From the NCBI RefSeq assembly GCF_947500325.1, contig NZ_CANMRQ010000005.1:62001-126000 (forward strand): a stretch of 64,000 nt of DNA, given 5' to 3'. The position numbers and the translations under genes are program-made. This stretch comes from an uncultured Lacinutrix sp. GTDB lineage: Bacteria > Bacteroidota > Bacteroidia > Flavobacteriales > Flavobacteriaceae. Positions 11,966 through 40,372 of the stretch are shown piece after piece; position 1 is the first letter of the stretch, and each line of letters opens with the position of its first letter. The notes under the pieces are model-generated. The model was not told the DNA's origin and did no database searches. It saw only the letters and a list, made by a program, of their open reading frames with translations.

Positions 11966-11979
11966 TTTGATATATAGCG

Positions 11980-13506: not shown

Positions 13507-13535
13507 GCGTTTTTTAATTCTAAAAATTTATAAAA

Positions 13536-13569
13536 TTGATCAATAACAAATATAAAGTCGTTATTTTTG
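13536..13569 (+). promoter_or_regulatory. Promoter of the halogenase-like gene
   Basis: TTG at 13536-13538 precedes TATTTTTG (13562-13569) with a 23-base spacer, slightly long but within the Bacteroidota range. The ATG is 37 bases beyond the -7 box. Because it overlaps the opposite promoter, the two transcripts probably compete or are co-regulated. Confidence 0.55.
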
Positions 13570-13577
13570 TTTGCAAA
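13547..13577 (-). promoter_or_regulatory. Promoter of the pigment operon
   Basis: On the minus strand, TTTG (13577-13574) is followed after 19 bases by TATATTTG (13554-13547), a near-perfect Bacteroidota primary sigma promoter. The start codon lies about 40 bases downstream. It overlaps the divergent halogenase promoter. Confidence 0.72.
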
Positions 13578-13606
13578 CTTAACATATTTAAAGCGTATTT
13601 ACTAGA

Positions 13607-14863: not shown

Positions 14864-14877
14864 GTTTCACTTTTTTC
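14843..14877. terminator. Bidirectional intrinsic terminator
   Basis: A perfect 15-bp stem (14843-14857 with 14863-14877), loop ATATA, flanked by A- and T-runs. The halogenase stop codon lies in its loop and right arm. It separates the convergent halogenase gene and the gene ending at 14901. Confidence 0.85.
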
Positions 14878-14900
14878 TTTAGTATTATGACTAAGAAATA

Positions 14901-15515
14901 TTACTTCTTAGTTTTCTTTAAAATTAATCCTGCTAATGTTTTACCAGTCTTAGCATAACCTTCACCAATTCGATCTTCATTACTATAAGTTCCTCCAAAA
15001 CTATTTCCAGGAGCATGTTTACCTGTAATTTCCAATAATACATTATCTCTATTAGCGGTTTCAACAAACCTAAGTAATGTAGATACTTTTGCAGGCCTTC
15101 TCATAACACCTACATTATAACCTGGATATAACCAAACTGTTTCTACTAATAAAGTATATTTTGCATCAGCTAACCCTTCTTCAAAAACAATACCTTTCTT
15201 CTTTTTTTCCATGTACCTGTTCATTAACTCTAAAAATTTAGGCGCATAAATTAATTCTCTCGCAGCAATCCACTTTTTCTCCCAAGCTTTTCCTTTTCCT
15301 TTACTTTTTTCTTCTAATTTTGCAGATCTCTCTGTCATATATTCTTCATTCGTTTTATTGTCTTTATATATTTTCATATTGTCATAGACAAACTCAACAT
15401 TAAATTCTTTTTGACCCTTAATAAAATCAAAATCACCTTTAACTACTTTCATTTTTTGTGCGAACATAACCCCACAAAAAAGTAAACTCAATACTAATGC
15501 TACTTGTTTTTTCAT
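14901..15515 (-). CDS. Secreted hypothetical protein
   Basis: The 204-residue protein has a clear signal peptide (MKKQVALVLSLLFCGVMFAQ, cleavage after about residue 19) and a lysine-rich mature part. Residues about 120-175 contain YTLLVETVWLYPGYNVGV and later GGTYSNEDRIGEGYAKTG. This resembles a family of uncharacterised flavobacterial periplasmic proteins, but I cannot name it. It stands alone, convergent to the halogenase gene. No catalytic motif is evident. Confidence 0.75.
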   Translation of the reverse strand: MKKQVALVLSLLFCGVMFAQKMKVVKGDFDFIKGQKEFNVEFVYDNMKIYKDNKTNEEYMTERSAKLEEKSKGKGKAWEKKWIAARELIYAPKFLELMNRYMEKKKKGIVFEEGLADAKYTLLVETVWLYPGYNVGVMRRPAKVSTLLRFVETANRDNVLLEITGKHAPGNSFGGTYSNEDRIGEGYAKTGKTLAGLILKKTKK

Positions 15516-16103
15516 TCTTTATATAATAATTGTTTAGTAAGCAAATATAAAAAATTAACCCAATTAAAAATTAAAGCAAATAAAATCGCAATAAAATGGC
15601 ACAAACCAACCGAATCAAAAGCATTGCATTAACAACCTAATAAACAATATATTAAAATATGATCACATACGATAAAAATGCATTTCATCGGTTTTTAATG
15701 CTTTTTGTAGATATTTTGTTTTTGTTTTTTTAAATTAGCATAACATTTTAATTAAACTCTAGATTCCCAAATCTAACATCTATGAAAAAAAATAACTCTA
15801 CCCCAACTTCAAACACACTTAATCGGACTTATTTACATTTAATCGATTTTTAAAACATTTTATCGATTGTTCTTAAATTAGAAATAAATAAAAGATGGCA
15901 GTGTATTACACATAATATATTTGTGTAAATAAGTTACCCAAATTTAAACATGAAGATTTTCTACTCAAATTCTATTCACGGCTTAACTGTGCTTAATTTC
16001 TAGTGATTAACGAATTATAGGAAAGATTATCTTCTCCACATAAACACAATATCTGAATATTTTATACCCAAATCATATTAACATAAAACTTAATCAATTT
16101 AAC
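15516..16103. other. 588-bp non-coding region upstream of collagen-like gene
   Basis: I see no convincing gene. It contains three direct repeats TTAATCG / TTAATCG / TTTATCG at 15819, 15839 and 15859, exactly 20 bases apart. A Bacteroidota-like -7 box, TATATTTG, lies at 15916-15923, which would give a leader of about 175 bases before the ATG at 16104. No good -33 TTG is placed correctly. Confidence 0.55.
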
Positions 16104-18989
16104 ATGAAAAAAATTATTTTCATTTTAACCTTTCTGTTATCAGCCTATAGTAGTTACGCACAAACATTTAATTACCAAGCAGCAGCTAGAGATAATTCTG
16201 GTAATGTAATTACTAATCAAAACTTAAGTGTAGAGTTATCAATTTTAAAGACAGGTCCATCAGGAATTAATGTCTATTCCGAAAATCATAGCGTAACAAC
16301 AAACAGTTTCGGTACATTCGATTTAGCAGTTGGAGCAGGTAATAATCCAACAACAAATTTTTCAAATATAGATTGGAGTAGTAACGATTATTGGTTACAA
16401 ATAGCAATTGATCAAAATGGAGGTACAAACTACACTATAGTTGGCTCCTCTCAACTAAGAGCTGTCCCATATGCTCTATATGCAGCTTCTGGCCCACAAG
16501 GTTTACAAGGTCCTACAGGTGACCAAGGCCCAATAGGCGATCAAGGCTTACAAGGTCCTACAGGTGACCAAGGCCCAATAGGTGATCAAGGTTTACAAGG
16601 TCCTACTGGTGACCAAGGCCCAATAGGCGATCAAGGCTTACAAGGTCCTACAGGTGATCAAGGTTTACAAGGTCCTACTGGTGACCAAGGTCCAATAGGA
16701 GAACAAGGTTTACAAGGCCCTACGGGAGATCAAGGCCCAATAGGTGATCAAGGTTTACAAGGTCCTACAGGAGATCAGGGTCCAATAGGCGATCAAGGTT
16801 TACAAGGCCCTACAGGAGATCAGGGTCCAATAGGCGATCAAGGTTTACAAGGCCCAATAGGAGAACAAGGTTTACAAGGTCCTACTGGTGACCAAGGCCC
16901 AATAGGAGAGCAAGGTTTACAAGGTCCTACTGGTGACCAAGGCCCAATAGGCGATCAAGGTTTACAAGGTCCAACTGGTGACCAAGGCCCAATAGGAGAG
17001 CAAGGTTTACAAGGTCCTACGGGAGATCAGGGTCCAATAGGCGATCAAGGTTTACAAGGTCCTACTGGAGACCAAGGCCCAATAGGAGAACAAGGTTTAC
17101 AAGGTCCAACTGGTGACCAAGGACCAATAGGCGATCAAGGTTTACAAGGCCCTACGGGTGACCAAGGCCCAATAGGAGAACAAGGTTTACAAGGTCCAAC
17201 TGGTGACCAAGGCCCAATAGGAGAGCAAGGTTTACAAGGTCCTACGGGCGATCAAGGTTTACAAGGCCCTACGGGAGACCAAGGTCCAATTGGTGACCAA
17301 GGTTTACAAGGCCCTACGGGTGACCAAGGCCCAATTGGCGATCAAGGTTTACAAGGTCCTACGGGAGATCAAGGTCCAATAGGCGATCAAGGTTTACAAG
17401 GCCCTACTGGAGACCAAGGACCAATAGGCGATCAAGGTTTACAAGGTCCAACTGGTGACCAAGGCCCAATAGGAGAACAAGGTTTACAAGGTCCTACTGG
17501 TGACCAAGGCCCAATAGGTGAGCAAGGTTTACAAGGCCCTACGGGAGACCAAGGCCCAATAGGTGATCAAGGTTTACAAGGTCCTACAGGTGACCAAGGC
17601 CCTATAGGCGATCAAGGTTTACAAGGTCCTACGGGTGACCAAGGCCCAATAGGCGATCAAGGTTTACAAGGTCCTACAGGAGATCAGGGTCCAATAGGCG
17701 ATCAAGGCTTACAAGGTCCTACGGGAGATCAGGGTCCAATAGGCGATCAAGGTTTACAAGGTCCTACGGGAGATCAGGGTCCAATTGGTGAGCAAGGTTT
17801 ACAAGGTCCTACTGGTGATCAAGGTTTACAAGGTCCTACTGGTGACCAAGGCCCAATTGGTGAGCAAGGCTTACAAGGTCCTACAGGAGATCAGGGTCCA
17901 ATAGGAGATCAAGGTTTACAAGGTCCTACGGGAGACCAAGGTCCAATAGGAGATCAAGGTTTACAAGGTCCTACTGGTGACCAAGGTCCAATTGGTGAGC
18001 AAGGTTTACAAGGTCCAACTGGTGACCAAGGTCCAATTGGTGATCAAGGTTTACAAGGTCCTACGGGAGATCAAGGTCCAATAGGAGAGCAAGGTTTACA
18101 AGGTCCTACGGGAGACCAAGGCCCAATAGGTGATCAAGGTTTACAAGGTCCTACAGGTAACCAAGGCCCAATTGGCGATCAAGGTTTACAAGGTCCTACT
18201 GGTGACCAAGGTCCAATTGGTGATCAAGGTTTACAAGGTCCTACAGGTGACCAAGGTCCAATTGGTGATCAAGGTTTACAAGGTCCTACGGGAGATCAAG
18301 GTCCAATTGGTGATCAAGGTTTACAAGGTCCTACTGGTGACCAAGGCCCAATTGGCGATCAAGGTTTACAAGGTCCTACTGGTGACCAAGGCCCAATTGG
18401 CGATCAAGGTTTACAAGGTTCTACTGGTGACCAAGGCCCAATTGGTGACAAAGGACCTACGGGTGACCAAGGTCCAGTAGGAGATCAAGGCTTACAAGGC
18501 CCAACGGGAGAACAAGGTCCACAAGGTCCTTCTGGAGTAGCACCTACACCAACAGTAATAGATGTATATAATTCTACAAGTACTACTATTGGGAATTCTT
18601 CAACAGTTATAAATTTAAATACAGTAAGAGTAAATATTGGAAGTTATAGTACTACAAACACTTCAATTACTATACCTGCAAGTGGTCTATATGAAATAAC
18701 ATACTCTATGTCTTATGACATAACAAATGTTCCACCCGGAACACCTAATGGAGATGTAAGATCTACAGTAGAAACAGCATTAAATTTGAACAGTACAGAA
18801 ATATTAGGAACTAAAACTTTTACTTATCATAGAAACGCATCAAGTGGAGAATCTACAGGTTCAAAATCTATTATAATACAGCTAACTCAAAATAATATAA
18901 TAAATGTATCTGCGAGGCAAATAGCCGGTACTGTTAGTATATCAACAGTAGCAAGTGGTTGTAATATAACAATCAAAAAATTAGATTAA
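16104..18989 (+). CDS. Collagen-like secreted protein with C1q-like C-terminal domain
   Basis: The 961-residue protein has a signal peptide (1-19, ending SSYAQ) and an N-terminal beta domain (20-129; [18 protein letters not shown] ... AVPYALYAA) that is common in Bacteroidota collagen-like and fibre proteins. Then come 227 uninterrupted Gly-X-Y triplets (130-810), mostly [15 protein letters not shown]. The C-terminal beta domain (about 811-961; [18 protein letters not shown]) resembles C1q/BclA trimer heads. It should form a trimeric surface stalk roughly 200 nm long if fully helical (inference). No T9SS signal is evident. A strong terminator follows. Confidence 0.9.
16491..18533 (+). repeat. 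45-bp tandem repeat array encoding Gly-X-Y triplets
   Basis: About 2.04 kb built from 45-base units coding [15 protein letters not shown] or [15 protein letters not shown], with a few shortened units lacking the GPIG[D/E]Q half. Units are nearly identical as protein but differ at third codon positions (ACA/ACT/ACG for Thr, GGC/GGT/GGA for Gly). The array is in frame throughout. Confidence 0.97.
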
Positions 18990-28602: not shown

Positions 28603-29298
28603 ATGTTTTTAAATTGTGTAGTAGTTGATGACTCAGCAATACAAAGATTATCTATAGTTAAGCTTATTGAAAATAACAGTTCGCTTAATCTAGTTGCAGA
28701 ATACAGCAGCGCATTAGAAACTAAAAATGGATTGAACACTCATAAAGTGGATCTTATATTTTTAGATATAGAAATGCCTGTATTAAATGGTTTTGAACTT
28801 TTAGATGTATTAAATAATAAGCCTCAAATTATTTTTGTTACAGGTAAAACAGAATATGCATTTAAAGCTTTTAATTACGACGCTACAGATTATCTACAAA
28901 AACCAATTACTCGCGAACGTTTTAATCAAGCTGTTGATAAAGCTGTAGAACAACACAAACTTAAGTTAGACTTTAACGAAGTTGAAGGTGAGCATATATT
29001 TGTAAAAAGTAATCTTAAAAAACGTAAAGTATATATTAGGGATATTAAATGGATTGAAGCTCTTGGTGACTATGTAAAATTAGTAACTGAAGATACTTCT
29101 CTTGTTGTATTATCTACAATGAAAGCTTTTGAAGGGGAATTACCAGAAGGGAAATTTTTAAGAATTCATAAATCCTACATTGTAAATTTAGATAAAGTAG
29201 ATCGATTTAACAGTAAAAATGTTGAAGTTGGGTCTTACGAAATACCATTAAGTAGAAATAAAAAGACATTGCTTGTTGATGCTTTAAATAATATCTAA
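28603..29298 (+). CDS. LytTR-family response regulator
   Basis: The 231-residue protein has a receiver domain (1-120) with acidic pocket DD at 9-10, phospho-acceptor Asp 55 in LIFLDIEMPVLNGFE and Lys 100 in YLQKP. A LytTR DNA-binding domain follows (about 130-228; IFVKSNLKKRKVYI, IHKSYIVNLDKV). LytTR regulators bind paired direct repeats about 21 bp apart. No sensor kinase is adjacent, so the partner must lie elsewhere. It is divergent from rpsF and ends in a strong terminator. Confidence 0.95.
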   Translation: MFLNCVVVDDSAIQRLSIVKLIENNSSLNLVAEYSSALETKNGLNTHKVDLIFLDIEMPVLNGFELLDVLNNKPQIIFVTGKTEYAFKAFNYDATDYLQKPITRERFNQAVDKAVEQHKLKLDFNEVEGEHIFVKSNLKKRKVYIRDIKWIEALGDYVKLVTEDTSLVVLSTMKAFEGELPEGKFLRIHKSYIVNLDKVDRFNSKNVEVGSYEIPLSRNKKTLLVDALNNI

Positions 29299-29351: not shown

Positions 29352-30164
29352 TTAGTTATACTTTAATTCTTCAATCTTATCTAGTAATTCTTTTGCTTGC
29401 TCTTTTTTAAAATAAGACTCTTGAATTATTTTGTTTAGTACACTTTTAGCTTCAGAAAGCTTATTTGCCTTCACATATAATAAGCTTTTATACCAGAATC
29501 CTTTTTCGGCATCAATTAAATTAGTATTAATTAATTCGTTTAATATAATTTCTGCCTCATTATACTCTTTTAGTTCTATATGTGATACTGCTTTGTATAT
29601 ATATAATGAACTATAGTCCTTTTCTTTCTCTAAACTTTTATTAAAAAGATTAAGGGCTTTTCTATATTCCTTCTTTTTAAATTCCTTTTCTGCTACAACT
29701 AATTCTTTTTCTAAGGCATCTTCACCTCTACTTCTAAAAGAAACCAACTCTTCTTTATGTATATATTCTGCATAAAGCTCATTTGTACTTAAAGAGGTAT
29801 TAGAAACAAAAAAGTTAATTACTAAGAGTAATAATACAATTGCAGCTGCACCAGTAAAAAGCATTAAAACTCGTTTACTATTTTTTTCCTTACGTTTTAA
29901 TAATACTTTTTTAATTTCATTTTTTAATTTTTGGGTTTGTTCATCTTTAAACAAATTGTCATACTCTTCTAGTTCTTTTGTATTTTCATTAGCTACAAAA
30001 TTCCAGTCTTTTTGATTTAATCCTTCAGAAATCTGTTTTTCTAGATTATACATCTCCCTGAAAGTTTCATCATTATTAATTCTTTTTAGGAAATTTTCTC
30101 TTTCTTCCTCAGATAATTCATTTCTTAAAAAGCGTTCTATTAGTATGTCTTCTTCTAAACTCAT
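29352..30164 (-). CDS. Anti-sigma-like membrane protein with periplasmic TPR
   Basis: The 270-residue protein has an N-terminal acidic helical segment, LIERFLRNELSEEERENFLK, typical of cytosolic anti-sigma domains in Bacteroidota. A single membrane helix (about 100-122; LMLFTGAAAIVLLLLVINFF) follows, then TPR-like helical repeats (about 150-265; YSSLYIYKAVSHIELKEYNE). It lies two bases after the ECF sigma gene, so it is likely the membrane regulator that sequesters that sigma factor. The TPR part would sense or bind a periplasmic partner. No zinc-binding anti-sigma motif is seen. Confidence 0.8.
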   Translation of the reverse strand: MSLEEDILIERFLRNELSEEERENFLKRINNDETFREMYNLEKQISEGLNQKDWNFVANENTKELEEYDNLFKDEQTQKLKNEIKKVLLKRKEKNSKRVLMLFTGAAAIVLLLLVINFFVSNTSLSTNELYAEYIHKEELVSFRSRGEDALEKELVVAEKEFKKKEYRKALNLFNKSLEKEKDYSSLYIYKAVSHIELKEYNEAEIILNELINTNLIDAEKGFWYKSLLYVKANKLSEAKSVLNKIIQESYFKKEQAKELLDKIEELKYN

Positions 30165-30166
30165 AT

Positions 30167-30718
30167 TTAAATTAATGATCTAAATCTTATATCATTTTTA
30201 ATTAATTCGGTCAACTTCTTTTTACATTTAAAAACACGTTGCCGTACAACAGATTCAGAATTATACTCAGTATTTTCAACTATCTCACTATATGGCATTC
30301 TAGCAAAAAAAAGATTTAAAATCTCCTTACAATTAGTAGAAATTTCATTTAATTTTTCAACAAATAATTCTTGCCTTTTTTGCTCTATAAGTGCTAAAGA
30401 ATTATCTCTATAATCACTCACTAGTTCAACAAACTCTTTATTTGTTACCCGTTTTTTATAACTATTTAATTCTCTTCTCCACAAATTTTTACAAACAGTA
30501 AAAAAATAAGCATCAAAACTACTATTAATTGAAATACCTTCTTTTCTATGACGAACAGAAATTTGCAATAATGCTTTTTGAAAAATATCCTCAGCATCTT
30601 GCTCATTTCCTTTATTTTGAAGTATAAATTTTCTTACTAAGTAAAAATTTGTTTCATATATTTTTGCTATAGTTTTCGAATCTCCTTTTACTAGCGCATT
30701 TAAAAAACTCTCTTCCAT
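30167..30718 (-). CDS. ECF-type RNA polymerase sigma factor
   Basis: The 183-residue protein has sigma region 2 (KGNEQDAEDIFQKALLQISV, AYFFTVCKNLWRREL) and region 4 with a helix-turn-helix (LNLFFARMPYSEIVENTEY ... RQRVFKCKKKL). Region 3 is absent, as in ECF sigmas. It directs RNA polymerase to a specific regulon. It is divergent from the CHAT/peptide-export genes, with the anti-sigma-like gene downstream, so those genes are candidate targets. Confidence 0.92.
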   Translation of the reverse strand: MEESFLNALVKGDSKTIAKIYETNFYLVRKFILQNKGNEQDAEDIFQKALLQISVRHRKEGISINSSFDAYFFTVCKNLWRRELNSYKKRVTNKEFVELVSDYRDNSLALIEQKRQELFVEKLNEISTNCKEILNLFFARMPYSEIVENTEYNSESVVRQRVFKCKKKLTELIKNDIRFRSLI

Positions 30719-30727
30719 TTATTAAAA

Positions 30728-30759
30728 TTGATAAGCAAAAATAAAATTTTATACTTTCG
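30728..30759 (+). promoter_or_regulatory. Putative promoter of the CHAT/peptide-export gene array
   Basis: TTG (30728-30730), 21-base spacer, TACTTTCG (30752-30759), a variant of the Bacteroidota -7 box. CATGGG occurs at 30760-30765 and again at 30788-30793, around the predicted transcript start. An ECF-specific promoter cannot be excluded. Confidence 0.45.
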
Positions 30760-30813
30760 CATGGGTAACATTATACTTTTTTATGAACATGGGAAAAAAT
30801 AAAACATAAAAAC

Positions 30814-31281
30814 ATGAAAAAACAGACTCTAATTAAACTAGTGCTTATCTCTTTAGTAACTATTTTATCAAGTGGTTTTACCATTATAGATAAAAGTTTA
30901 TTAAATAATAAAACTAATATTAACAGTATAAGTGAATATACTGATGAAATATTAGTATCCTATCCACCTGGATCTAATATCACAGATATTAGAAACTGTA
31001 TTATTAATAGTTTTAATGGTCAAATATTACAAATTACACCATGCCCATCTAACCCCAATATAGAAACATTAAAATTTTTCAACCTTTTGTTTCAAAAAGG
31101 AGATACTAATGGGGTTTATGATGGTACAGATACTGATAGAAAAGGGTTTCTAAATTCAAATGCAATGTATGTTAGTCAACAACAAATATTAGATACAATG
31201 GCCAATTGCAATGCATTTATATTTGCTTATTATGGAAACCAAGACTGTGGTAGTTTTGGTGCATTTCAGAGTGGCTTTTAA
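30814..31281 (+). CDS. Small secreted four-cysteine protein, paralogue 1
   Basis: I do not recognise a named family. The 155-residue protein has a signal peptide (about 1-24) and then DEILVSYPPGSNITDIRNCI, QILQITPCPSNPNIETLKF and a C-terminal ANCNAFIFAYYGNQDCGSFG. Cysteines are 62, 77, 132 and 145, all conserved in the next gene. The DEILVSYPPG...IETLKF part recalls the small propeptide-like domains at the start of some Bacteroidota peptidases. Its position between a sigma factor and a CHAT protein suggests a substrate, inhibitor or secreted effector of that system; this is inference. Confidence 0.75.
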   Translation: MKKQTLIKLVLISLVTILSSGFTIIDKSLLNNKTNINSISEYTDEILVSYPPGSNITDIRNCIINSFNGQILQITPCPSNPNIETLKFFNLLFQKGDTNGVYDGTDTDRKGFLNSNAMYVSQQQILDTMANCNAFIFAYYGNQDCGSFGAFQSGF

Positions 31282-31352
31282 TTTTTTTTAATGATAGAAA
31301 ACTAAATTTCACTTTTTTTACTATGACATTCACACACATAAATAAAAAGATT

Positions 31353-31811
31353 ATGAAAAAGAGTATTTTAATTAAACTAATGCTAATTTTTATAGCTGCT
31401 TTTATATCAAGTAGTTATACTAAAAATAACAAAAACTTATTAAATAATAATATTAATGGAGATTATACTGATGAAATAGTTGTATCCTATCCTCCTGGAT
31501 CTAATATTACTAATATTAGAAACTGTATTAGTAAAAATTTTAATGCTCAAATATTACAAATCACACCATGCCCTTCTAACCCTAATATAGAAACATTAAA
31601 GTTTTACAATGTTTTGTTTCCTAAAGAAGATACTAATGGGGTTTATGATGGTCAAGATCCAGATCAAGAAGCACCGCCGCCTTATTTATATGCAACTTAT
31701 ATTAGTCAACAACAAATATTAAATACAATGGCTAATTGTAATGCTTTTATATTTGCATATTCTGGAAACCAAGACTGTGGTAGTTTTGGAGCTTTTCAAA
31801 GCGGTTTTTAA
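31353..31811 (+). CDS. Small secreted four-cysteine protein, paralogue 2
   Basis: From the ATG at 31353 (chosen because MKKSILIKLMLIF aligns with the paralogue's start; an in-frame ATG at 31323 would add ten residues before the signal peptide) this is 152 residues. It matches the preceding gene over most of its length: YTDEIVVSYPPGSNITNIRN, QILQITPCPSNPNIETLKF, QQQILNTMANCNAF and GNQDCGSFGAFQSGF. The variable stretch lies between DTNGVYDG and YISQQQ. It is a tandem duplication with conserved cysteines, hence probably disulfide-bonded outside the cytosol. Confidence 0.75.
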   Translation: MKKSILIKLMLIFIAAFISSSYTKNNKNLLNNNINGDYTDEIVVSYPPGSNITNIRNCISKNFNAQILQITPCPSNPNIETLKFYNVLFPKEDTNGVYDGQDPDQEAPPPYLYATYISQQQILNTMANCNAFIFAYSGNQDCGSFGAFQSGF

Positions 31812-31857
31812 ATTCGTTATTAACACATAAATTTAATTTTTAATAATATTATATATT

Positions 31858-34569
31858 GTGAGATATAGCTATCCACTTTTTGTTTTACTTTTTGTATTTG
31901 GTTTTAAAGAAGCAAAAGCTCAATACAATAGTAAAGACATTATAATTTTAGATAAACAAAAAGAACTTAATGAAAAAAGAGTGGATAGTATATTATATAC
32001 TATTACTAATAAAGATTCCTTATATGCACAAATAGCGCATAATTTCTCTTACTTCTTTTACAAACAAAAAAAAGAATATAATCTAGCTATTAAATATGGT
32101 ATTATTGAAGTAAATACATTAGATAATTTAAAAATAAAAAATGAAAATCATACTAATGCGTTATATAATATAGGTAAATTCTATTTTATTAAGAATCAGT
32201 ATGAAAATGCTATCGCCTATTACAAAAAAGCAATAAAGTCAAACGCTTTTCCTCTTAAAGTAGCTCAGTCTTATTGCATGTTAGGTGAATGTTATTTTAG
32301 AAAAGGGGACTATTATAAATCTATTAACCACTATACAAAAGGCATATCTTTATTAGAAAAACTTAATAGCTATAAAACTACTTTAATTGCCAAATGCAAT
32401 AATTTATCTAGAGTATGTAATAAAATGGATACTCCTAAAAGCACAAAAATTGGACTATTTTACTTAAATAAAGCAGATAGTATTATAAAAAACACTTCAA
32501 ATCTTAAAGTTGACGATCGCTCTGTATATTCTTTAAACGTAGGATTTGCTAATTTATATGCTTTAAAACATCAATATAATTTAAAAAAAGCTAAACATTA
32601 TTATTTAAAAAACCTTAATAAAGCTACTAAAGAAAAAAACGATAAAATGATTGCTAATTCCTGTTTAAATATAGGAGAGTTATATTTAAAATCTAAAAAT
32701 GATAGCTGTATTTATTTTTTTAAAAAAAGTATAAAATATGATTCTATAAATAAAATAGACATATATGAAACTTATAGGAATACAGCTAATTACTATATAA
32801 GTAAAAATAAATTCCAGAAAGCTCTAATAGATATAGAAAAGTCTTTGGCTTATAGTTTTAATGTTAAAAATTATAATGCTATTAATAACTTATCTTCAAA
32901 ACAGATATTAAACATTGGAGATAAAATTAGTATCGTTGGAGCATTAAGAACTAGAACAGAAACCCTTATACATTTATACAATTCTACAAAAAACAAAGAG
33001 TTTCTATATAAAGCAATCAATATAGTAAACTTTAACGATAAACTAGTTGAACTTCTTTTAAATCATAGTAATGAAATAGATACTAAGTTACTTTGGAGAA
33101 ATGAAACTTCTAAAACTTATATCTTAGGTGTAAAAGCTGCTTATATACTACAAGATGAAGTAACCATGCATAATTTCATGGAAAAAAATAGAGCTTTATT
33201 ATTAATACAAAGTATAAAACAAAATATTTCGCAACTATCACTACCTATAAATTTAGCAAACAAAAGAATAGAACTTAAAGAAAGAATTTTAAAACTTGAG
33301 GATATTATCGATAAAAATCAAGGCTCAAATTCGTATTCGAAAGCAAAAGATTCTTTATTTAATTTAAAAGAGAAATATGCTGTATTTAATGATTCTATAA
33401 GTAAAATACATCCAAATTATTTTAATAATAATTTAAAACCAACATCACTAGAAGATGTTAAAAGCAATCTTGATAATTCCTCTATTATTGTATCTTACAT
33501 TTCTAATACTATAAACACAGAAGAAACTGCCTTCTATGGATTAATTATTTCTAATAAAAATCAATATTCCTTTGAGGTTAAAAACGTTAATAGCCTACTT
33601 AAAAATGCAATTACATTTAAAAACTTAATTTCTAAACCTCTTAAAACAAAAAAAGAATTAGATTCGTTTAAAAAAACAGCATATAACCTCTATAATCAAC
33701 TTTTCCCAGGAGATAGCTTAAAACAAATAATAAAAAACAAGCATTTAGTTATCATTCCTGGCACTATATTCCAAAATATTCCTTTTGAAGCTTTAAATGT
33801 TGATAAAAACGCTCTTAAATACTTAATTGAAGAAAACGACATTAGTTACACCTATTCTATGTCTTTTTCAGATAAGAATAATGAAGTCGTAAGAAATACC
33901 ACTAAAGATTTTGTTGGTTTCTCTCCTGTTGAATTCGAAAATAAAAACCTAATAACTCTAGACAACACGGAAGAAGAAGTAGTAGCAATAAATGATATTT
34001 TAGATGGAGAAATATACACTCATAAAAAATCAAGTAAAAAAACATTTATAGAAAGCGGATTAAATTCAAAAATTATTCATTTAGCTACACATGCAAATTC
34101 TTCACAAAAACCAGAAATATACTTTACTAGAGACACTTTAAAATTACATGAACTCTACACATTAAGAAATAATGCAGACTTAGTTGTTTTAAGTGCCTGC
34201 GAAACAAATTTAGGTGCTATAAAAAAAGGTGAAGGTGTTTTTAGTTTAGCTAGAGGTTTCTTCTATTCAGGTTCAAATGCAGTAGTCTCATCTCTATGGA
34301 ATGTAAATGATACTTCGACTTCTTTTTTAATGAAAAATTTTTATGAAAATTTAAAAAATAAACAATCTAAAGTTAAAGCATTAAATAATGCAAAAAGGCA
34401 ATATTTAAGCGAGCACAAATTATCTGAAAAATCCCCATATTACTGGGCTTCTTTTATTTTAATTGGAGACACAGATAAAACATTTCATAATAACTATTAC
34501 TTACTTTATCTCTTAGGGTTTATAATACTTCTCATTTTATTTTCATTTTTTTTCAAAAATAAAGGGTAA
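31858..34569 (+). CDS. TPR-CHAT protein, exported and membrane-anchored
   Basis: The 903-residue protein starts at GTG. It has a signal peptide (1-21, ending AKAQ), multiple TPR helical repeats (about 40-370), a helical linker and a C-terminal CHAT domain (about 590-870). The caspase-like dyad is His 745 in HLATHANSS and Cys 781 in VLSACETNLG. A hydrophobic helix at 881-899 precedes a short basic tail. CHAT domains are caspase-related proteases or scaffolds. Topology suggests the TPR and CHAT parts face the periplasm. It follows the two small secreted proteins in one transcript direction. Confidence 0.9.
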   Translation: MRYSYPLFVLLFVFGFKEAKAQYNSKDIIILDKQKELNEKRVDSILYTITNKDSLYAQIAHNFSYFFYKQKKEYNLAIKYGIIEVNTLDNLKIKNENHTNALYNIGKFYFIKNQYENAIAYYKKAIKSNAFPLKVAQSYCMLGECYFRKGDYYKSINHYTKGISLLEKLNSYKTTLIAKCNNLSRVCNKMDTPKSTKIGLFYLNKADSIIKNTSNLKVDDRSVYSLNVGFANLYALKHQYNLKKAKHYYLKNLNKATKEKNDKMIANSCLNIGELYLKSKNDSCIYFFKKSIKYDSINKIDIYETYRNTANYYISKNKFQKALIDIEKSLAYSFNVKNYNAINNLSSKQILNIGDKISIVGALRTRTETLIHLYNSTKNKEFLYKAINIVNFNDKLVELLLNHSNEIDTKLLWRNETSKTYILGVKAAYILQDEVTMHNFMEKNRALLLIQSIKQNISQLSLPINLANKRIELKERILKLEDIIDKNQGSNSYSKAKDSLFNLKEKYAVFNDSISKIHPNYFNNNLKPTSLEDVKSNLDNSSIIVSYISNTINTEETAFYGLIISNKNQYSFEVKNVNSLLKNAITFKNLISKPLKTKKELDSFKKTAYNLYNQLFPGDSLKQIIKNKHLVIIPGTIFQNIPFEALNVDKNALKYLIEENDISYTYSMSFSDKNNEVVRNTTKDFVGFSPVEFENKNLITLDNTEEEVVAINDILDGEIYTHKKSSKKTFIESGLNSKIIHLATHANSSQKPEIYFTRDTLKLHELYTLRNNADLVVLSACETNLGAIKKGEGVFSLARGFFYSGSNAVVSSLWNVNDTSTSFLMKNFYENLKNKQSKVKALNNAKRQYLSEHKLSEKSPYYWASFILIGDTDKTFHNNYYLLYLLGFIILLILFSFFFKNKG

Positions 34570-34611
34570 CAAACTTACAATTATTGAACAGGTCGGAAAA
34601 ATAATCAAATT

Positions 34612-36213
34612 TTGAAAGACAGTTTAATAAGCATTACACAAAAACTATTAAAAGAAAACAAAATTTCTTTTGATAAAGAGGAGCTCATATTTCAAATACA
34701 AAGTCATCCTTCATATCCAAGTCTGCATGCCATTACAGGTGTTTTAGATCACTTTAACATTGAAAATATCGCTGCAGAAGTACCAATTAATAATGATACT
34801 CTAAAGCAATTACCTGATTCTTTTATCGCACAAATAGTAACAGATACAGGAAAAGATTTAGTTACAGTTAGTAAACTTCAAAATAAATCTGCATACACTA
34901 TATTTTTTGAATCCAAAAAGAAAAAAGAATTCTCAGTAACTAACTTCTTAGAAGTATTTACTGGAATTATAGTTGTTGTTGAAAAAACAGAAAATCAACA
35001 ACAAAAAACAAAAAATAAATTTATAAGCACAGTTCTATTGAGTGCTATTATTTTATTGACTATAGTATTATTGATTACAAAGAATACTTCGGTATTAGAT
35101 TTTGTATATATAGGCTTATCTGTGTTTGGAGTTGTTGTAAGTTACAGTATTACTAAACAAGAGTTGGGAACAACTACTGCTATTGGGGAAACTTTCTGCT
35201 CCGGCAATAACGACAAAAAAGATTGCGATGCTGTTTTAAACTCTAAAGGAGCAACCCTAGTTAAAGAACATAAAATTAGTGATCTAAGTATTATTTATTT
35301 CTCTGGATTATTACTATCTACTCTCTTAACTAGTAATTATAATCCTTTGTATTTAATTAGTTTTTTAGCACTACCAATAACATTTTATTCGATATACTAC
35401 CAATACAAAATTGTAAAGACATGGTGTGTATTATGCCTAACTATTATTGGTGCTTTATGGTTACAAGCTAGTCTGGGTTTCATGAAAGTGGTAAATATAT
35501 CATCTGCTTTAACCAATACTAACAACCTTATAGTTACTTTAATAGTTTTTATTAGTATTTATTTATGTTGGTATTATATAAAACCTTTAGCTAAAGGTGT
35601 AATTGAATTACAAAAAGATAAAATTGAATCTATAAGGTTTAAAAGAAATTATACTTTATTTAATAGTTTATTACAAAAATCTTCAACAAAAAACACTGTC
35701 ATATCTGATGGCAGAGAAATTATTTTTGGTAATAAAGAGTCTAAATTAGAAATAACAATTATCACTAATCCATTTTGTAGTCACTGTAAGCCCGTTCACG
35801 AAACACTTAATGAGATATTAAAAAAATACAATCAATTAGTTAAGATTATCATTCGATTTAGTGTTTCAACTAATAACATTAAATCTAGTGATGTAATCGT
35901 TACTACTAGATTACTAGAGCTTTATAATTCTAAAAAACTAAATGATTGTAAACTAGCTATGAATGACATTTACCATGGAATGCCTTATAAAAAATGGCTC
36001 TCAAAATGGCAAACCACTAACGAAACTTCTCAATATTTAGAAGTCTTACAAAATGAGAAATCATGGTGCAATGATCATGCTATTAATTTCACACCAGAAA
36101 TATTAATAAACGGTAAATCTTTTCCTAAAGAGTACAAGAGAACTGATTTAATTTTCTTCATTGAAGATTTACAAGAATCTTCTCAAATTATACAACCACT
36201 TGTAATAAAATAA
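34612..36213 (+). CDS. Pseudo-C39 / VKOR / thioredoxin fusion (disulfide-forming enzyme)
   Basis: The 533-residue protein begins at TTG. Residues about 1-125 resemble a C39 peptidase domain (SHPSYPSLHAITGVLDHFNI) but contain no cysteine, so they are non-catalytic. A VKOR four-helix domain (about 140-330) has loop cysteines 196 and 205 and the quinone-site motif Cys272-Val-Leu-Cys275. A thioredoxin domain (about 360-525) has Cys389-Ser-His-Cys392. VKOR-thioredoxin fusions form disulfides in exported proteins. It lies 6 bases before the C39 ABC transporter, so the likely substrates are the cysteine-rich peptides downstream. Confidence 0.87.
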   Translation: MKDSLISITQKLLKENKISFDKEELIFQIQSHPSYPSLHAITGVLDHFNIENIAAEVPINNDTLKQLPDSFIAQIVTDTGKDLVTVSKLQNKSAYTIFFESKKKKEFSVTNFLEVFTGIIVVVEKTENQQQKTKNKFISTVLLSAIILLTIVLLITKNTSVLDFVYIGLSVFGVVVSYSITKQELGTTTAIGETFCSGNNDKKDCDAVLNSKGATLVKEHKISDLSIIYFSGLLLSTLLTSNYNPLYLISFLALPITFYSIYYQYKIVKTWCVLCLTIIGALWLQASLGFMKVVNISSALTNTNNLIVTLIVFISIYLCWYYIKPLAKGVIELQKDKIESIRFKRNYTLFNSLLQKSSTKNTVISDGREIIFGNKESKLEITIITNPFCSHCKPVHETLNEILKKYNQLVKIIIRFSVSTNNIKSSDVIVTTRLLELYNSKKLNDCKLAMNDIYHGMPYKKWLSKWQTTNETSQYLEVLQNEKSWCNDHAINFTPEILINGKSFPKEYKRTDLIFFIEDLQESSQIIQPLVIK

Positions 36214-36218
36214 TTTTC

Positions 36219-38405
36219 TTGAAAAAATTTCCATACTACAAACAAACGGAGTCCAAAGATTGCGGTCCAACTTGTATTAAAATTATTGCTAAGCATTATG
36301 GCAAAACTATTAATACACAACAATTAAGAAACCTTAGCGAAACAACTCGTGAAGGCTCTAGTTTACTTGGTCTAAGTGAAGCAGCAGAATCTATTGGCTT
36401 TAAATCTTTAGGTATTAAATTAGCTTTTAATAAATTATTAGAAGCTCCATTACCATGCATTATACATTGGAATAAAAATCATTATGTAGTACTTTATAAA
36501 GTAAAAAAAGAGATACTATATATATCTGATCCCGCTCATGGACTTATCACTTTTTCAAAACAAGAATTTATTAAACACTGGATTGGTAATAATGCCAATG
36601 AAAATACAGAAGAAGGTATTGCTTTACTAATTGAGCCAACACCAAAATTCTATCAAGAAGAATTTGAAAAAGATGAGAAATTTGGATTTTCATTCATCTT
36701 TAAATACTTAATACAATACAAGAAATTTATTATTCAGCTAATTATTGGTTTATTAGCTGGTAGTTTATTGCAAGTAATACTTCCCTTTTTAACACAAAGT
36801 GTTGTAGATGTTGGTATAAAAAATCAAGACATAAATTTTGTATACTTAATTCTATTTGCTCAATTATTCTTGTTTTTAGGAAAAGCTTCTCTAGAAATTA
36901 TTAGAAGCTGGATCTTACTCCACTTAAGTACCAGAATAAATATCTCTCTCATATCAGACTTCTTTATCAAGTTAATGAAATTACCTATTTCTTATTTTGA
37001 TGTAAGGATGACAGGCGATTTATTACAACGTATTAATGATCATAAAAGAATTGAAAGAATACTAACGACATCTTCACTAACAGTTTTATTCTCATTTTTC
37101 AATTTAATCATTTTTAGTCTCGTTTTAGGATTCTATAGTTTGCAAATTTTTGGAGTCTTTGTACTTGGAAGCTTGTTATATTTTGGATGGGTATTATTTT
37201 TCTTCAAAAAACGAAAAGAGCTTGATTATAAACAATTTTCTGAAGTAAGTCAAGAACAAAGTAAAGTTATAGAACTTATAAATGGAATGCAAGAAATTAA
37301 ACTCCATAATGCAGAAAGAAGAATGCGTTGGAATTGGGAATACGTTCAAGCTAGGTTATTTAAAGTTGCTACAAAAAGTCTGGCTTTAGAGCAAACCCAA
37401 AGTGTTGGCTCTAATCTTATTAATGAACTTAAAAACATGTTTATTACCATATTATCTGCCAAATTAGTGATTGATGGTCAAATAACTCTAGGCATGATGA
37501 TGGCTATTAGTTATATCGTAGGGCAATTAAACGGACCAATTACACAACTCATAAACTTTATGAGAGACGTACAAGATGCTCAAATCTCTCTAGATAGATT
37601 AGGCGAAATACATAATATGGAAGATGAAGAAAAACCTAATGATGAAAAAGTCACAAATATTCCTATAAATACCCCAATTAAATTAAATAACATCTCATTT
37701 AAATATACAGGAGGTTTAGAACCTGTAATTAAAAACTTAACTCTAGAAATACCTGCTAATAAAACTACTGCTATTGTTGGTGTTAGTGGTAGTGGTAAAA
37801 CGACTTTAATGAAACTATTACTAGGTTTTTACAACGTAGATGCTGGAGATATTTCTATTAGCAACTTCAACTTTAAAAATATTTCTCAAAAAGAATGGCG
37901 AAAAAACTGTGGTGTAGTTATGCAAGAAGGTTACATCTTTAATGATACCATAGCCAAAAACATTGCTGTAGGTCAAGATTATGTTGATAAGGAGAAATTA
38001 GCTCATGCAATTGATGTCGCGAATATCTCAGATTATATAGACGGATTACCACTAGGCTACAATACTAAAATTGGTAGTGAAGGTAGTGGATTAAGTACCG
38101 GGCAAAAACAACGCTTACTAATTGCTAGATCTGTATATAAAAACCCTCAATTTTTATTTTTTGACGAGGCAACTTCTGCTCTTGATGCCAATAATGAAAA
38201 AGTAATTATGGAGAAACTAAACACCTTTTTCGCAGATAAAACTGCCGTAGTGATAGCGCATAGATTAAGTACTGTAAAAAATGCTCATCAAATAGTAGTA
38301 TTAGATAAAGGTAAAATAGTAGAGCAAGGAAATCACCAAGAACTTATACAATTGAAAGGAAGTTATTACCACTTAGTTAAAAACCAATTAAACTTAGGTA
38401 AATAA
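36219..38405 (+). CDS. Peptidase-containing ABC transporter (C39), Gly-Gly leader exporter
   Basis: The 728-residue protein starts at TTG so that the C39 domain begins at its usual place. Cys 15 (SKDCGPTC), His 88 (NKNHYVVLY) and Asp 104 (SDPAHG) form the protease triad. A six-helix membrane domain (about 165-440) follows, then an ATPase domain with Walker A GVSGSGKTT, signature LSTGQKQRL and Walker B FLFFDEATSALDA. Such transporters cut after Gly-Gly in the leader and export the peptide. Two Gly-Gly-leader peptide genes and an HlyD gene follow directly. Confidence 0.95.
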   Translation: MKKFPYYKQTESKDCGPTCIKIIAKHYGKTINTQQLRNLSETTREGSSLLGLSEAAESIGFKSLGIKLAFNKLLEAPLPCIIHWNKNHYVVLYKVKKEILYISDPAHGLITFSKQEFIKHWIGNNANENTEEGIALLIEPTPKFYQEEFEKDEKFGFSFIFKYLIQYKKFIIQLIIGLLAGSLLQVILPFLTQSVVDVGIKNQDINFVYLILFAQLFLFLGKASLEIIRSWILLHLSTRINISLISDFFIKLMKLPISYFDVRMTGDLLQRINDHKRIERILTTSSLTVLFSFFNLIIFSLVLGFYSLQIFGVFVLGSLLYFGWVLFFFKKRKELDYKQFSEVSQEQSKVIELINGMQEIKLHNAERRMRWNWEYVQARLFKVATKSLALEQTQSVGSNLINELKNMFITILSAKLVIDGQITLGMMMAISYIVGQLNGPITQLINFMRDVQDAQISLDRLGEIHNMEDEEKPNDEKVTNIPINTPIKLNNISFKYTGGLEPVIKNLTLEIPANKTTAIVGVSGSGKTTLMKLLLGFYNVDAGDISISNFNFKNISQKEWRKNCGVVMQEGYIFNDTIAKNIAVGQDYVDKEKLAHAIDVANISDYIDGLPLGYNTKIGSEGSGLSTGQKQRLLIARSVYKNPQFLFFDEATSALDANNEKVIMEKLNTFFADKTAVVIAHRLSTVKNAHQIVVLDKGKIVEQGNHQELIQLKGSYYHLVKNQLNLGK

Positions 38406-38430
38406 TATTAAAATATTCTCTCGCGAGGAA

Positions 38431-38460
38431 TAGACGCAAAACTTGAGTGTCTCTAAAAAA
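38431..38460 (+). promoter_or_regulatory. Conserved leader hairpin upstream of peptide 1
   Basis: TAGACGCAAAACTTGAGTGT followed by CTCTAAAAAA can fold as AGACGC (38432-38437) with GTGTCT (38447-38452). A near-identical element lies at the same distance upstream of peptide 2. The ATG is 47 bases beyond the hairpin. Confidence 0.55.
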
Positions 38461-38498
38461 TTCAAGGATACAAATCAACTTTATTAATTATTTAAATT

Positions 38499-38723
38499 AT
38501 GAAAAAACAAATTTTAAACTTAGGAAAAGCTTTAAACAAAGTAGAACAAAAACAAATTAATGGAGGCTCAGCTTGTGCATACTACCACCAATACAACTTA
38601 TGCTTTGGTCCAGTTCCTGGCTGTTTACCTTGTGGGCGAATGGATGATTATCCCGGTGCATCAACTTGCGGTTTATTAACACATGCAAGCTGTGAAGGTG
38701 ATATCTCTTTTAATCAATTTTAG
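38499..38723 (+). CDS. Gly-Gly-leader cysteine-rich peptide precursor 1
   Basis: The 74-residue precursor has the leader LGKALNKVEQKQINGG, with Gly22-Gly23 as the predicted C39 cleavage site, giving a 51-residue core. The core has six cysteines (26, 35, 42, 45, 57, 65) that could form three disulfides, made by the VKOR-thioredoxin fusion upstream. It is of the Bacteroidota double-glycine natural product/bacteriocin precursor type. No radical SAM or lanthionine enzyme gene is nearby, so other modification is not indicated. Activity unknown. Confidence 0.85.
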   Translation: MKKQILNLGKALNKVEQKQINGGSACAYYHQYNLCFGPVPGCLPCGRMDDYPGASTCGLLTHASCEGDISFNQF

Positions 38724-38734
38724 AAAACTAAAAA

Positions 38735-38765
38735 CAAACAACTAGATGCTTAGTCTAGTTGTTTG
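38735..38765 (+). terminator. Hairpin after peptide 1 (weak terminator)
   Basis: A 12-bp perfect stem (38735-38746 with 38754-38765; CAAACAACTAGA) and 7-base loop. The following bases are only partly T-rich, so it may be a 3'-end stabiliser or attenuator instead of a full terminator. Confidence 0.6.
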
Positions 38766-38790
38766 CTAATCTATTTTATAGATAGCTAAA

Positions 38791-38820
38791 TAGACACAAT
38801 TCTTGAGTGTCTTTAAAAAA
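38791..38820 (+). promoter_or_regulatory. Conserved leader hairpin upstream of peptide 2
   Basis: TAGACACAATTCTTGAGTGT then CTTTAAAAAA folds as AGACAC (38792-38797) with GTGTCT (38807-38812). Compared with copy 1 one stem position changes from a G-U to an A-U pair, so pairing is kept. The ATG is 44 bases beyond. Confidence 0.55.
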
Positions 38821-38855
38821 ATTAAGAATCTTATTAATTTTTAAAAGAATTTAAA

Positions 38856-39029
38856 ATGAAAAAATCAATTTTAAATATTGGAAAAGCTTTAAACAAGGCT
38901 GAATTAAAAACAATAAATGGTGGCGAAATAACATTTTGCAATAATCCTGGAGGACACTGTGATCTTCATCACATTTGCGAACCTTGGATGGGGCGAACTG
39001 GTATTTGTATTAGTGTAGACATTATATAA
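38856..39029 (+). CDS. Gly-Gly-leader cysteine-rich peptide precursor 2 (57 aa)
   Basis: I translated this small gene directly. The leader IGKALNKAELKTINGG is almost the same as that of precursor 1, with cleavage predicted after Gly23. The 34-residue core starts EITFCNNPGGHCDLHHIC and has four cysteines (28, 35, 41, 51). It ends at a TAA at 39027. The shared leader, a duplicated upstream hairpin and a terminator-like hairpin downstream make it a real gene and a second substrate for the C39 transporter. Core sequences of the two peptides do not align beyond cysteine spacing. Confidence 0.87.
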   Translation: MKKSILNIGKALNKAELKTINGGEITFCNNPGGHCDLHHICEPWMGRTGICISVDII

Positions 39030-39038
39030 TTGTAAAAC

Positions 39039-39069
39039 AATAAGAGCACGGTTAGTACGTGCTCTTATT
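39039..39069 (+). terminator. Terminator-like hairpin between peptide 2 and hlyD-type gene
   Basis: A perfect 12-bp stem (39039-39050 with 39058-39069; AATAAGAGCACG and its complement) with a 7-base loop. It ends 13 bases before the next ATG, so it may limit readthrough from abundant peptide mRNA into the transporter gene. Confidence 0.7.
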
Positions 39070-39082
39070 AAATCTTTAATTT

Positions 39083-40372
39083 ATGCCACATACTATTCAA
39101 AATACAGAAATACGAAGCGAAGAAGTTCAAGAAATACTTACTAAAGTTCCCAATTGGATGATTAGGTATGGTAATACTCTTATACTAGTACTTATTATTA
39201 TGTTATTGCTTATTTCTTGGTTTATTAAATATCCAGATGTAATATCGTCTCAAGTAATGATAACTACAGCTTTACCTCCAGAAAAAATATATACAAAATC
39301 AATAGGGCAATTCGAAGTATTTTTAGCTAGTGAAGGTGAAAAAGTTAAAGAGAACCAAGTATTAGCTGTTATAGAAAATAGTGCCTTCTATAAAGACGTT
39401 TTATTATTAAAAAGTATTGTTGATTCTATTAATTATCATGATGAAAGCTTCTCTTTTCCTTTAGATCAACTTACTCCTTTAGCATTAGGAGATATAAATA
39501 CTAGTTTTTCTCAATTTGAGAATAGCTATTCAGATTATAAATTAAATAAAGAATTAACACCTTACGAACCTGAAACTTTTGCTAATACTATGTCTGTACT
39601 AGAAGCAAAAGGAAGGTTACAAAATTTACTATATCAAAAGGACTTAAATAAAAAAGAATTAGAGTTCAAAGAAAAAGATTTAGAAAGAAGCGAAAAACTA
39701 TTCAAGAAAGGTATTATCGCAGAAAATGAGCTAGATAAAAAGGAAATAAGTTTTCTTCAGGCAAAACGATCATATCAAAACATGAGTTCATCTATATCCC
39801 AAATGCGAGACCTAATAAATAACTCTAATAAAAATATAAAAGGAACTTCTATAAAAAAAACCCAGAATGAGGTTAGATTAAAGAAAAAAGCAATTCAATC
39901 TTTTCTAAATTTAAAAAGAGCCATAAAAGAATGGGAGAGACAATATGCTTTAATCTCTTCTATTAATGGAAAAGTGTCATATCTTTCATTTTGGAACAAA
40001 AATCAAACTGTAAAGAATGGAGATTTAATTTTTACTATTATCCCCAATACAAGCGAATCTTTTATTGGTAAAATTAAGGCTCCTATAGTTAATTCAGGAA
40101 AAATTAAGACAGGTCAAAAAGTACAAATTAAGCTATTAAATTATCCTTCTGATGAATACGGAGAACTTAATGGAAAAGTAAAATCTATCTCACTTATTCC
40201 TGATCAAGAAAATAATTATCTAATAGATGTTGAATTACCAAAAGACCTTAAAACTACATATGGAAAAACAATCCTTTTTAAACAAGAAATGAGAGGAACA
40301 GCAAATATTATAACTGAAGATTTAAAATTAATAGAACGTTTCTTTTACCAACTAAAAAAAGCAATAGGATAA
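39083..40372 (+). CDS. HlyD-family membrane fusion protein
   Basis: The 429-residue protein has a short cytosolic N-terminus, one membrane helix (about 31-49; TLILVLIIMLLLISWFI), a lipoyl/barrel-sandwich part (AVIENSAFYKD), a long coiled coil (about 175-300) and a C-terminal beta-barrel domain. It would link the C39 ABC transporter to an outer-membrane TolC-like channel; none is encoded in the window. It is the last gene of the array and its stop lies 4 bases from the convergent priA stop. Confidence 0.92.
   Translation: MPHTIQNTEIRSEEVQEILTKVPNWMIRYGNTLILVLIIMLLLISWFIKYPDVISSQVMITTALPPEKIYTKSIGQFEVFLASEGEKVKENQVLAVIENSAFYKDVLLLKSIVDSINYHDESFSFPLDQLTPLALGDINTSFSQFENSYSDYKLNKELTPYEPETFANTMSVLEAKGRLQNLLYQKDLNKKELEFKEKDLERSEKLFKKGIIAENELDKKEISFLQAKRSYQNMSSSISQMRDLINNSNKNIKGTSIKKTQNEVRLKKKAIQSFLNLKRAIKEWERQYALISSINGKVSYLSFWNKNQTVKNGDLIFTIIPNTSESFIGKIKAPIVNSGKIKTGQKVQIKLLNYPSDEYGELNGKVKSISLIPDQENNYLIDVELPKDLKTTYGKTILFKQEMRGTANIITEDLKLIERFFYQLKKAIG

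Follow-up and report, generated by a model that had tools for sequence, protein, structure and literature searches.

The window analysed here is a 64,000-nucleotide stretch of contig NZ_CANMRQ010000005.1 from an uncultured Lacinutrix, and its positions 29,352 to 40,372 hold a locus in which an extracytoplasmic function (ECF) sigma factor and an anti-sigma candidate stand back to back with secreted proteins, an exported TPR-CHAT protease candidate and a peptide-export cassette. A first-pass annotation, made without database searches, had named ten genes here and read them as one system; the open reading frame (ORF) listing of the window confirms all ten at their coordinates and strands, and the main names are backed by Pfam and NCBIfam matches. 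Three copies of a motif, GGGTAAC-N15/16-GAAC (hereafter the strict motif), also lie in the locus, which is laid out as follows, with sides of the membrane predicted.

29352..30164, minus strand: anti-sigma candidate, with an N-terminal helical domain, one predicted transmembrane (TM) segment and a predicted periplasmic TPR domain (TPR_19, 2.5e-8)
30167..30718, minus strand: ECF sigma factor (TIGR02937, 1.8e-15; Sigma70_r2, 2.5e-5)
30424..30450, minus strand: motif copy inside the sigma gene, GGGTAAC-N16-GAAC, pointing at the anti-sigma gene (pattern search; synonymous-site test)
30763..30788, plus strand: promoter-like motif copy upstream of X1 (pattern search; homologous intergenic regions)
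30814..31281, plus strand: X1, secreted, with a predicted ferredoxin-like fold, a stand-alone S8 N-terminal domain (hidden Markov model (HMM), 1.9e-12; AlphaFold)
31323..31811, plus strand: X2, a paralogue of X1 (72% identical to X1; HMM E 1.1e-10)
31858..34569, plus strand: exported TPR-CHAT protease candidate with a C-terminal TM segment and H745/C781 (CHAT PF12770, 6.1e-52)
34564..34589, plus strand: motif copy where CHAT meets VKOR, sharing bases with the CHAT stop (pattern search; comparison of joined and unjoined loci)
34612..36213, plus strand: pseudo-C39/VKOR/thioredoxin fusion, a putative disulfide maker (VKOR, 3.5e-11; Thioredoxin_4, 8.9e-8)
36219..38405, plus strand: C39 peptidase-ABC exporter (C39, 9.2e-38; ABC_membrane; ABC_tran)
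38499..38723, plus strand: Gly-Gly (GG) leader peptide 1, with a six-Cys core (ORF listing; leader repeat)
38856..39029, plus strand: GG-leader peptide 2, 57 aa, with a four-Cys core (ORF listing; leader repeat)
39039..39069: perfect 12-bp hairpin between peptide 2 and HlyD (sequence)
39083..40372, plus strand: HlyD-type adaptor (HlyD_3, 2e-10; TIGR01843, 6.6e-26, below its cut-off)

The sigma factor scores above the NCBIfam cut-off for sigma70-ECF (56.9 bits, cut-off 42.9). In the export half, the C39-like start of the VKOR fusion (4.6e-4, under the Pfam cut-off) is devoid of cysteine and the protein carries the Cys pairs CSGNNDKKDC, CVLC and CSHC; the exporter combines C39 and ABC domains and keeps the active-site stretch QTESKDCGPTC. 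The leader regions of the two GG peptides are 80% identical DNA repeats, and peptide 2 weakly matches the bacteriocin-like leader NF047798 (E 0.013, below cut-off). By gene content the locus has the bacteroidetocin-type set of a Cys-bearing GG-leader peptide, a thiol oxidoreductase and a C39-ABC exporter; the exported peptides are most likely bacteriocin-like and would act as toxins. A known anti-phage defence system was considered and rejected, since PADLOC models run against the ten locus proteins matched the ABC exporter alone (mad3, mad8 and AriA, over its ATPase part). A second set of VKOR fusion and GG peptides, lacking both CHAT and motif, occurs elsewhere in the same genome (L102, G000 C11).

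Recurrence of the locus and exchange of its cargo

Comparison drew on 40 CHAT neighbourhoods, 60 VKOR-fusion stretches and 74 named loci from among the best 80 matches; the VKOR-fusion stretches, with loci collected earlier, cover 65 of the 72 listed VKOR-fusion places. Some loci entered twice, through unnamed and named collections, and because loci were picked by CHAT or VKOR search the counts given here are not frequencies in nature.

Across the mapped loci the gene order is conserved around a repeated core, with anti-sigma candidate and sigma on one strand and X and CHAT on the other. The anti-sigma candidate adjoins 117 of 119 sigma genes and a divergent CHAT gene is present at 107 of them (doubly fetched loci counted), with one gene between sigma and CHAT in 95 cases, two in 9 and three in 3. 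What varies is the cargo 3′ of CHAT—the VKOR/GG/ABC/HlyD set, proteases, proteins of the type IX secretion system (T9SS) or an Ntox23 toxin—an interchangeability not foreseen in the first-pass annotation. Thus L064 has an M10-like metalloprotease (11622-13145, plus strand; 1.2e-4, below the Pfam cut-off) in the VKOR position between CHAT and the C39-ABC exporter, with GG-like peptides alongside and a strict motif upstream of the metalloprotease. T9SS-tailed proteins are the CHAT cargo in L190, L195, L205 and L208, an RHS-repeat match is the cargo in L164 and, in an Aquimarina (L178), the cargo is a DUF6443-Ntox23 toxin (12682-18045, plus strand), just upstream of which, at 12627, stands GGTAACA, which is not the strict motif.

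When only identical VKOR fusions are merged (so that the near copies L160/L216 and L213/L214 count separately), 27 were joined to CHAT and 58 were unjoined, with no CHAT within three genes; the unjoined set includes a few near contig ends, and in L195 CHAT lies five genes away. Sigma and anti-sigma accompany 24 of the 27 joined fusions, X 26, ABC and HlyD 20, and a GG-like small ORF (loose pattern) 26. The three joined loci without sigma lie at the ends of the available DNA (L133, L225) or after broken CHAT copies (L060). The first-pass annotation had looked to at least four families recurring in the same order as support for one system and to halves found only apart as the contrary outcome: sigma, anti-sigma, X, CHAT, VKOR, ABC and HlyD are all present in 18 of the 27, and both halves occur separately as well as together.

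A FastTree phylogeny of 130 CHAT proteins indicates that the joining has happened repeatedly. The export label (28 rows, L064 among them) requires 13 changes, well-supported branches forcing 10 of these, and an S8 subtilase label (21 rows) requires 4, of which 2 are forced; changes are gains or losses, one pair of long branches meets and FastTree is a fast form of tree building.

A motif that links the two halves

The 107 sigma-X intergenic regions include 85 distinct ones (30-400 nt), of which 56 contain GGGTAAC, compared with 0.2 in shuffles; the looser box [GT]GTAAC is found in 65, with AAC 22-23 nt further on in 36 counts. The window has three GGGTAAC-N14/17-GAAC matches against 0.02 expected, all in the locus: one precedes X1, one lies where CHAT meets VKOR and one is within sigma. 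Only this exact spaced form is informative, since lone GGGTAACA (≤1 mismatch) was not enriched as a window signal (21 against 32.5 expected).

The 4.57-Mb genome to which the window belongs holds 11 strict matches against none for the reversed pattern; a looser genome-wide pattern gave no enrichment over its reversed control there (24 against 35). Seven of the 11 lie ahead of genes in three CHAT loci and two inside the sigma genes of those loci, leaving one inside an unrelated ORF and one ahead of a lone 179-aa lipoprotein. This lipoprotein gene (L241, 1500-2099; G000 C1:587506), away from any CHAT match, is a possible distant regulon member. Strict matches occur in 7 of 13 genomes of the genus: in G201, G204 and G208 the only two genome-wide belong to the joined locus, at X and VKOR (in G201 the called ORF includes the X match, which nevertheless lies 5′ of the probable signal-peptide methionine); two matches in each of G200 and G205, and three in G202 besides the one at VKOR, were not linked to any CHAT locus.

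Over 109 CHAT loci (2.25 Mb) we counted 130 strict matches, 124 of them within 4 kb of a CHAT centre. An ORF start lies within 220 bp of 71, comprising 29 X, 16 VKOR, 3 S8 and 23 other genes; one of these last is a GG peptide, and on visual inspection most seem to be secreted. GAAC and the start codon are 27-31 nt apart in 11 of 15 VKOR and 12 of 27 X cases, a spacing as for a promoter.

The link between switch and export half is most direct at VKOR, which is preceded by the strict motif in 17 of 27 joined loci but in none of 58 unjoined ones, and by GGGTAAC in any form in 21 of 27 against 0 of 58. Two unrelated modules that are neighbours by chance would not be expected to show this difference. 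Each half is indeed common alone, as the 58 unjoined fusions and many CHAT loci with other cargo attest, but repeated joining in the same order and a motif confined to joined loci led us to reject independent neighbours, an explanation we now hold to be extremely improbable. The reading of the two halves as one system is thereby supported. We infer that the sigma factor reads GGGTAAC-N15/16-GAAC as its promoter.

A motif copy kept within the sigma gene

The copy inside the sigma gene, another feature absent from the first-pass annotation, recurs in strict form in 38 of 110 distinct sigma genes, around codon 90-115 on the sense strand. When synonymous codons were redrawn from the usage of the same sigma genes (500 runs), the strict motif appeared in a mean of 1.9 and at most 6 genes, and GTAAC-N15/16-GAAC, observed in 69 of 110, in a mean of 11.5 and at most 21; as the sigma genes are related, these contrasts are not p-values. 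Where this site reads R-V-T in the protein, it is encoded by AGG or CGG, GTA and ACA in 37 of 38 cases, even though these two Arg codons account for 221 of 1175 overall. Coincidental coding of R-V-T-N was rejected, because the synonymous null is exceeded and because cases with Glu, Lys or Trp before Val-Thr keep the same bases.

The strict motif was found nowhere else in the sigma genes, in none of 111 anti-sigma genes and in one of 146 CHAT genes, and its internal form in 0 of 27 ECF sigma genes of the window's genome that are not CHAT-linked (those among the best 30 of 40 sigma-family matches; the L260 ORF was possibly wrongly picked). Codon choice thus points to selection at synonymous sites that keeps the motif in place, and we read it as a putative promoter for the anti-sigma gene maintained inside sigma.

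The TPR-CHAT protein, X and the anti-sigma candidate

The dyad His745/Cys781 named in the first-pass annotation is invariant in all 48 aligned CHAT proteins of ≥700 aa, drawn from the 54 CHAT-labelled ORFs then in hand. By a hydrophobicity threshold all 48 have a C-terminal TM segment and 37 have an N-terminal signal-like segment, which makes the protein, with its TPRs, a predicted exported, membrane-anchored protease candidate. There are nine TPR-CHAT matches at E ≤0.001 in the genome of the window, matches at 1e-30 or better in 74 of 199 family genomes, and matches at 1e-90 in 16 of 295 class genomes, own family included. Broken second TPR-CHAT copies lie near intact ones in Lacinutrix neustonica (L060 5248-7684, the same record as L199) and an uncultured Bizionia (L101 139-2609, the same record as L202), and Tenacibaculum has arrays of five or six CHAT-matching ORFs (L162 and L166 on one contig; L172).

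The gene between sigma and CHAT encodes a 120-240-aa protein in the window and most near relatives, and an S8 subtilase in sister loci, three of the scanned ones lying in the genome of the window (L053, L055, L056). An HMM was built from stand-alone X proteins of other loci, with the window pair and the S8 proteins excluded; 85 of 95 candidates joined, two training candidates came from other contigs of the same genome, four unlike proteins had been removed beforehand and Z was set to 5000. This model matches X1 and X2 and also the N-terminal region of 15 of 15 S8 proteins sited between sigma and CHAT (E 1.5e-11 to 5e-4; L070 and L226 are one identical protein), the scores being partly due to the lipoprotein signal. 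Scores are lower for S8 proteins from loci with another arrangement: L086 at 4.8e-6, L077 at 1.2e-4, L081 at 6.8e-4, L087 at 1.4e-3, L075 at 0.02, L079 at 0.026 and L089 at 8.5, with no match for L080 and L090. X is homologous to S8 N-termini, a relationship not suggested by the first-pass annotation, which had described the pair as four-cysteine proteins; in a 30-sequence alignment only C145 is invariant and C77 present in at least 90%, so that four cysteines are not a family trait. AlphaFold models X1 with a β-α-β-β-α-β core (mean predicted local distance difference test (pLDDT) 79.5, predicted template modelling score 0.62, most of the core above 90), the element order of subtilisin prodomains.

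Sigma and anti-sigma genes stand by CHAT in seven of the 16 class-level neighbourhoods, four of these outside the family and some with S8. This suggests that the S8-CHAT-sigma form is older and more widespread than the form with X alone and the motif, a direction that we infer.

The first-pass description of the protein at 29352..30164 as TPR-bearing and anti-sigma-like stands in its first part by profile; the second remains a candidate label, taken from its position beside sigma and from the AlphaFold topology (mean pLDDT 86.2), with a helical N-terminal domain, a helix at 103-120 taken as TM and a C-terminal TPR domain.

Proposed mechanism and relation to known systems

We think it probable that the locus forms a single inducible unit, in which a conserved CHAT/sigma switch turns on an interchangeable output, here peptide export. 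The membrane-bound anti-sigma, with its periplasmic TPR domain, would hold the ECF sigma factor, and the periplasmic, membrane-anchored TPR-CHAT protein with its partner X would sense the envelope or the surroundings. On a trigger, CHAT would cut the periplasmic part of the anti-sigma, either at once or when X has been released from it, or would remove X, and the freed sigma would start transcription from GGGTAAC-N15/16-GAAC promoters: one ahead of X-CHAT giving positive feedback, another ahead of the cargo, and the one inside the sigma gene, ahead of anti-sigma, giving negative feedback. The GG-leader Cys-rich peptides would then be trimmed and exported by C39-ABC/HlyD and oxidised by the VKOR-thioredoxin protein. 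The topology of the switch proteins is predicted throughout, and the role of CHAT is the weakest step, its cleavage of the anti-sigma being proposed by analogy.

That analogy comes from type III-E CRISPR, where the TPR-CHAT protein Csx29 cleaves Csx30, an inhibitor of the ECF sigma factor CASP-sigma (PMC10028731). Both loci encode a TPR-CHAT protease together with an ECF sigma and an inhibitor or inhibitor candidate, and cleavage of the inhibitor was shown for Csx30, whereas the CHAT protein here is predicted to be exported and membrane-anchored and the inhibitor candidate is a TM protein with TPRs (PMC10028731). Neither Cas7-11 nor Csx30 was recognised among the locus proteins in Pfam and NCBIfam scans, which included no comparison with Csx30 and no CRISPR search of the genome. 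The control of RpoE by RseA/DegS, named in the same account, is similar in having a membrane anti-sigma whose cutting on the periplasmic side could free an ECF sigma; what differs here is a caspase-like CHAT instead of DegS, a partner X and swappable secreted cargo (PMC10028731). ECF54 shares conserved subtilase and CHAT neighbours and a proposed proteolytic control, but that control is described as working without an anti-sigma, in the context of a mainly actinobacterial mechanism, unlike the loci described above, with an anti-sigma candidate beside nearly every sigma (PMC8999054). Tested bacteroidetocin cassettes have a GG peptide with four Cys, a thiol oxidoreductase and a C39-ABC exporter and are likened to the present locus by gene set; HlyD, the VKOR-thioredoxin fusion with its pseudo-C39 and, in joined loci, the sigma/CHAT control set the latter apart (PMC6671954). 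The ECF promoters that were first studied carry AAC at −35, with CGT usual at −10, and positive autoregulation and a co-transcribed anti-sigma are hallmarks of ECF sigma factors (PMC8103513). We found no description of this Bacteroidota system in the literature searched, which most subscription journals fall outside; the first-pass statement that no described system with the full set was known has to be qualified, ECF54 and Csx29/Csx30/CASP-sigma being relevant precedents. More tentatively, the locus may represent a CRISPR-free, periplasmic Csx29-like circuit of the Bacteroidota, in which a TPR-CHAT protein cuts a TPR-bearing anti-sigma, the sigma gene embeds the promoter of its antagonist and the weapons—disulfide peptides, proteases, T9SS proteins and polymorphic toxins—are swappable.

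Several results weigh against the proposed mechanism. Ten of the 27 joined VKOR genes are without the strict motif and six without GGGTAAC at all; outside the family the motif is present in 2 of 13 CHAT stretches, with one match each; the nine CHAT-linked sigma genes of the window's genome include two with the strict internal form and four with the looser; and 59 of the 130 strict matches lie more than 220 bp from any called ORF start, sigma-internal copies being one source. The reversed control yielded 5 matches in G202 and 4 in G204 against 4 and 2 real ones, so that in these genomes count alone is uninformative and position speaks. The second box is GAAC, against the CGT listed as usual at −10, and the GTAAC box is present by construction of the set. 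For the anti-sigma candidate no anti-sigma profile in Pfam or NCBIfam rose above cut-off (best E 0.07), and a search with the single X1 sequence matched 1 of 199 family genomes, its own. Pfam I9 matched neither 3 X and 6 S8 proteins (E up to 1) nor the window pair (E up to 0.1), Foldseek returned nothing for X1 at E 0.001 and only weak matches, ferredoxin-like folds among others, and a PDB sequence search with X gave nothing convincing. An assignment of X to Inhibitor_I9 is therefore unsupported by profile, Foldseek or PDB sequence, leaving topology and position; matched by the HMM and modelled as β-α-β-β-α-β, X is homologous to S8 N-termini and, by predicted fold, I9-like in topology only.

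To these points belongs the sequence TT[GA]-N18-22-TAnnTT[TC], a housekeeping-type promoter consensus of Bacteroidota, which 17 of 65 motif regions have directly upstream of the motif (TTG-N19-TATACTTTC in the case of the window); in those regions the motif could sit at the start of a housekeeping transcript. Rather than a sigma promoter, it might then be a site at promoters of housekeeping type that another regulator or an RNA-binding protein recognises, as DNA or in the 5′ part of the RNA. We regard this as unlikely: no TAnnTTTG consensus is seen immediately before the copies at VKOR and inside sigma, the internal copy shows synonymous constraint and sigma belongs to the conserved core, an argument that is not exclusive, since the annotation did not extend to other regulators among the flanking genes.

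Somewhat less unlikely, though still the lesser prospect, is a downstream role for CHAT within the same regulon. As an output enzyme it would mature or break down X, the peptides that are exported or proteins of the envelope, and sigma would be freed by a different protease or by a conformational signal. CHAT does sit on the regulated cargo side, right after X and apart from sigma; other positions in sister loci hold S8 proteases and the M10-like metalloprotease (below the Pfam cut-off); and X, kept with or without an S8 domain, would fit as a CHAT substrate or inhibitor. However, CHAT and the sigma/anti-sigma pair stay constant as the cargo changes, which fits a part of the switch better than a part of the output, and the Csx29 precedent speaks against an output enzyme.

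If the unit works as proposed, common but uncharacterised exported caspase-like proteases would become testable through a dedicated sigma factor, a readable promoter motif and a candidate regulon, and the protease-sigma logic of type III-E CRISPR would be a broader theme. A motif search could then find induced secreted products, and a promoter selected within sigma codons would be an unusual feedback design.

Other features of the window

A LytTR response regulator adjoins the locus (28603-29298, plus strand). Further away, 16104-18989 on the plus strand encodes a 961-aa secreted collagen-like repeat protein, in whose gene a 45-bp unit recurs about 45 times; the bin of this gene region (16001-18000) has a guanine-plus-cytosine fraction of 0.46, compared with 0.24-0.33 in the other bins.

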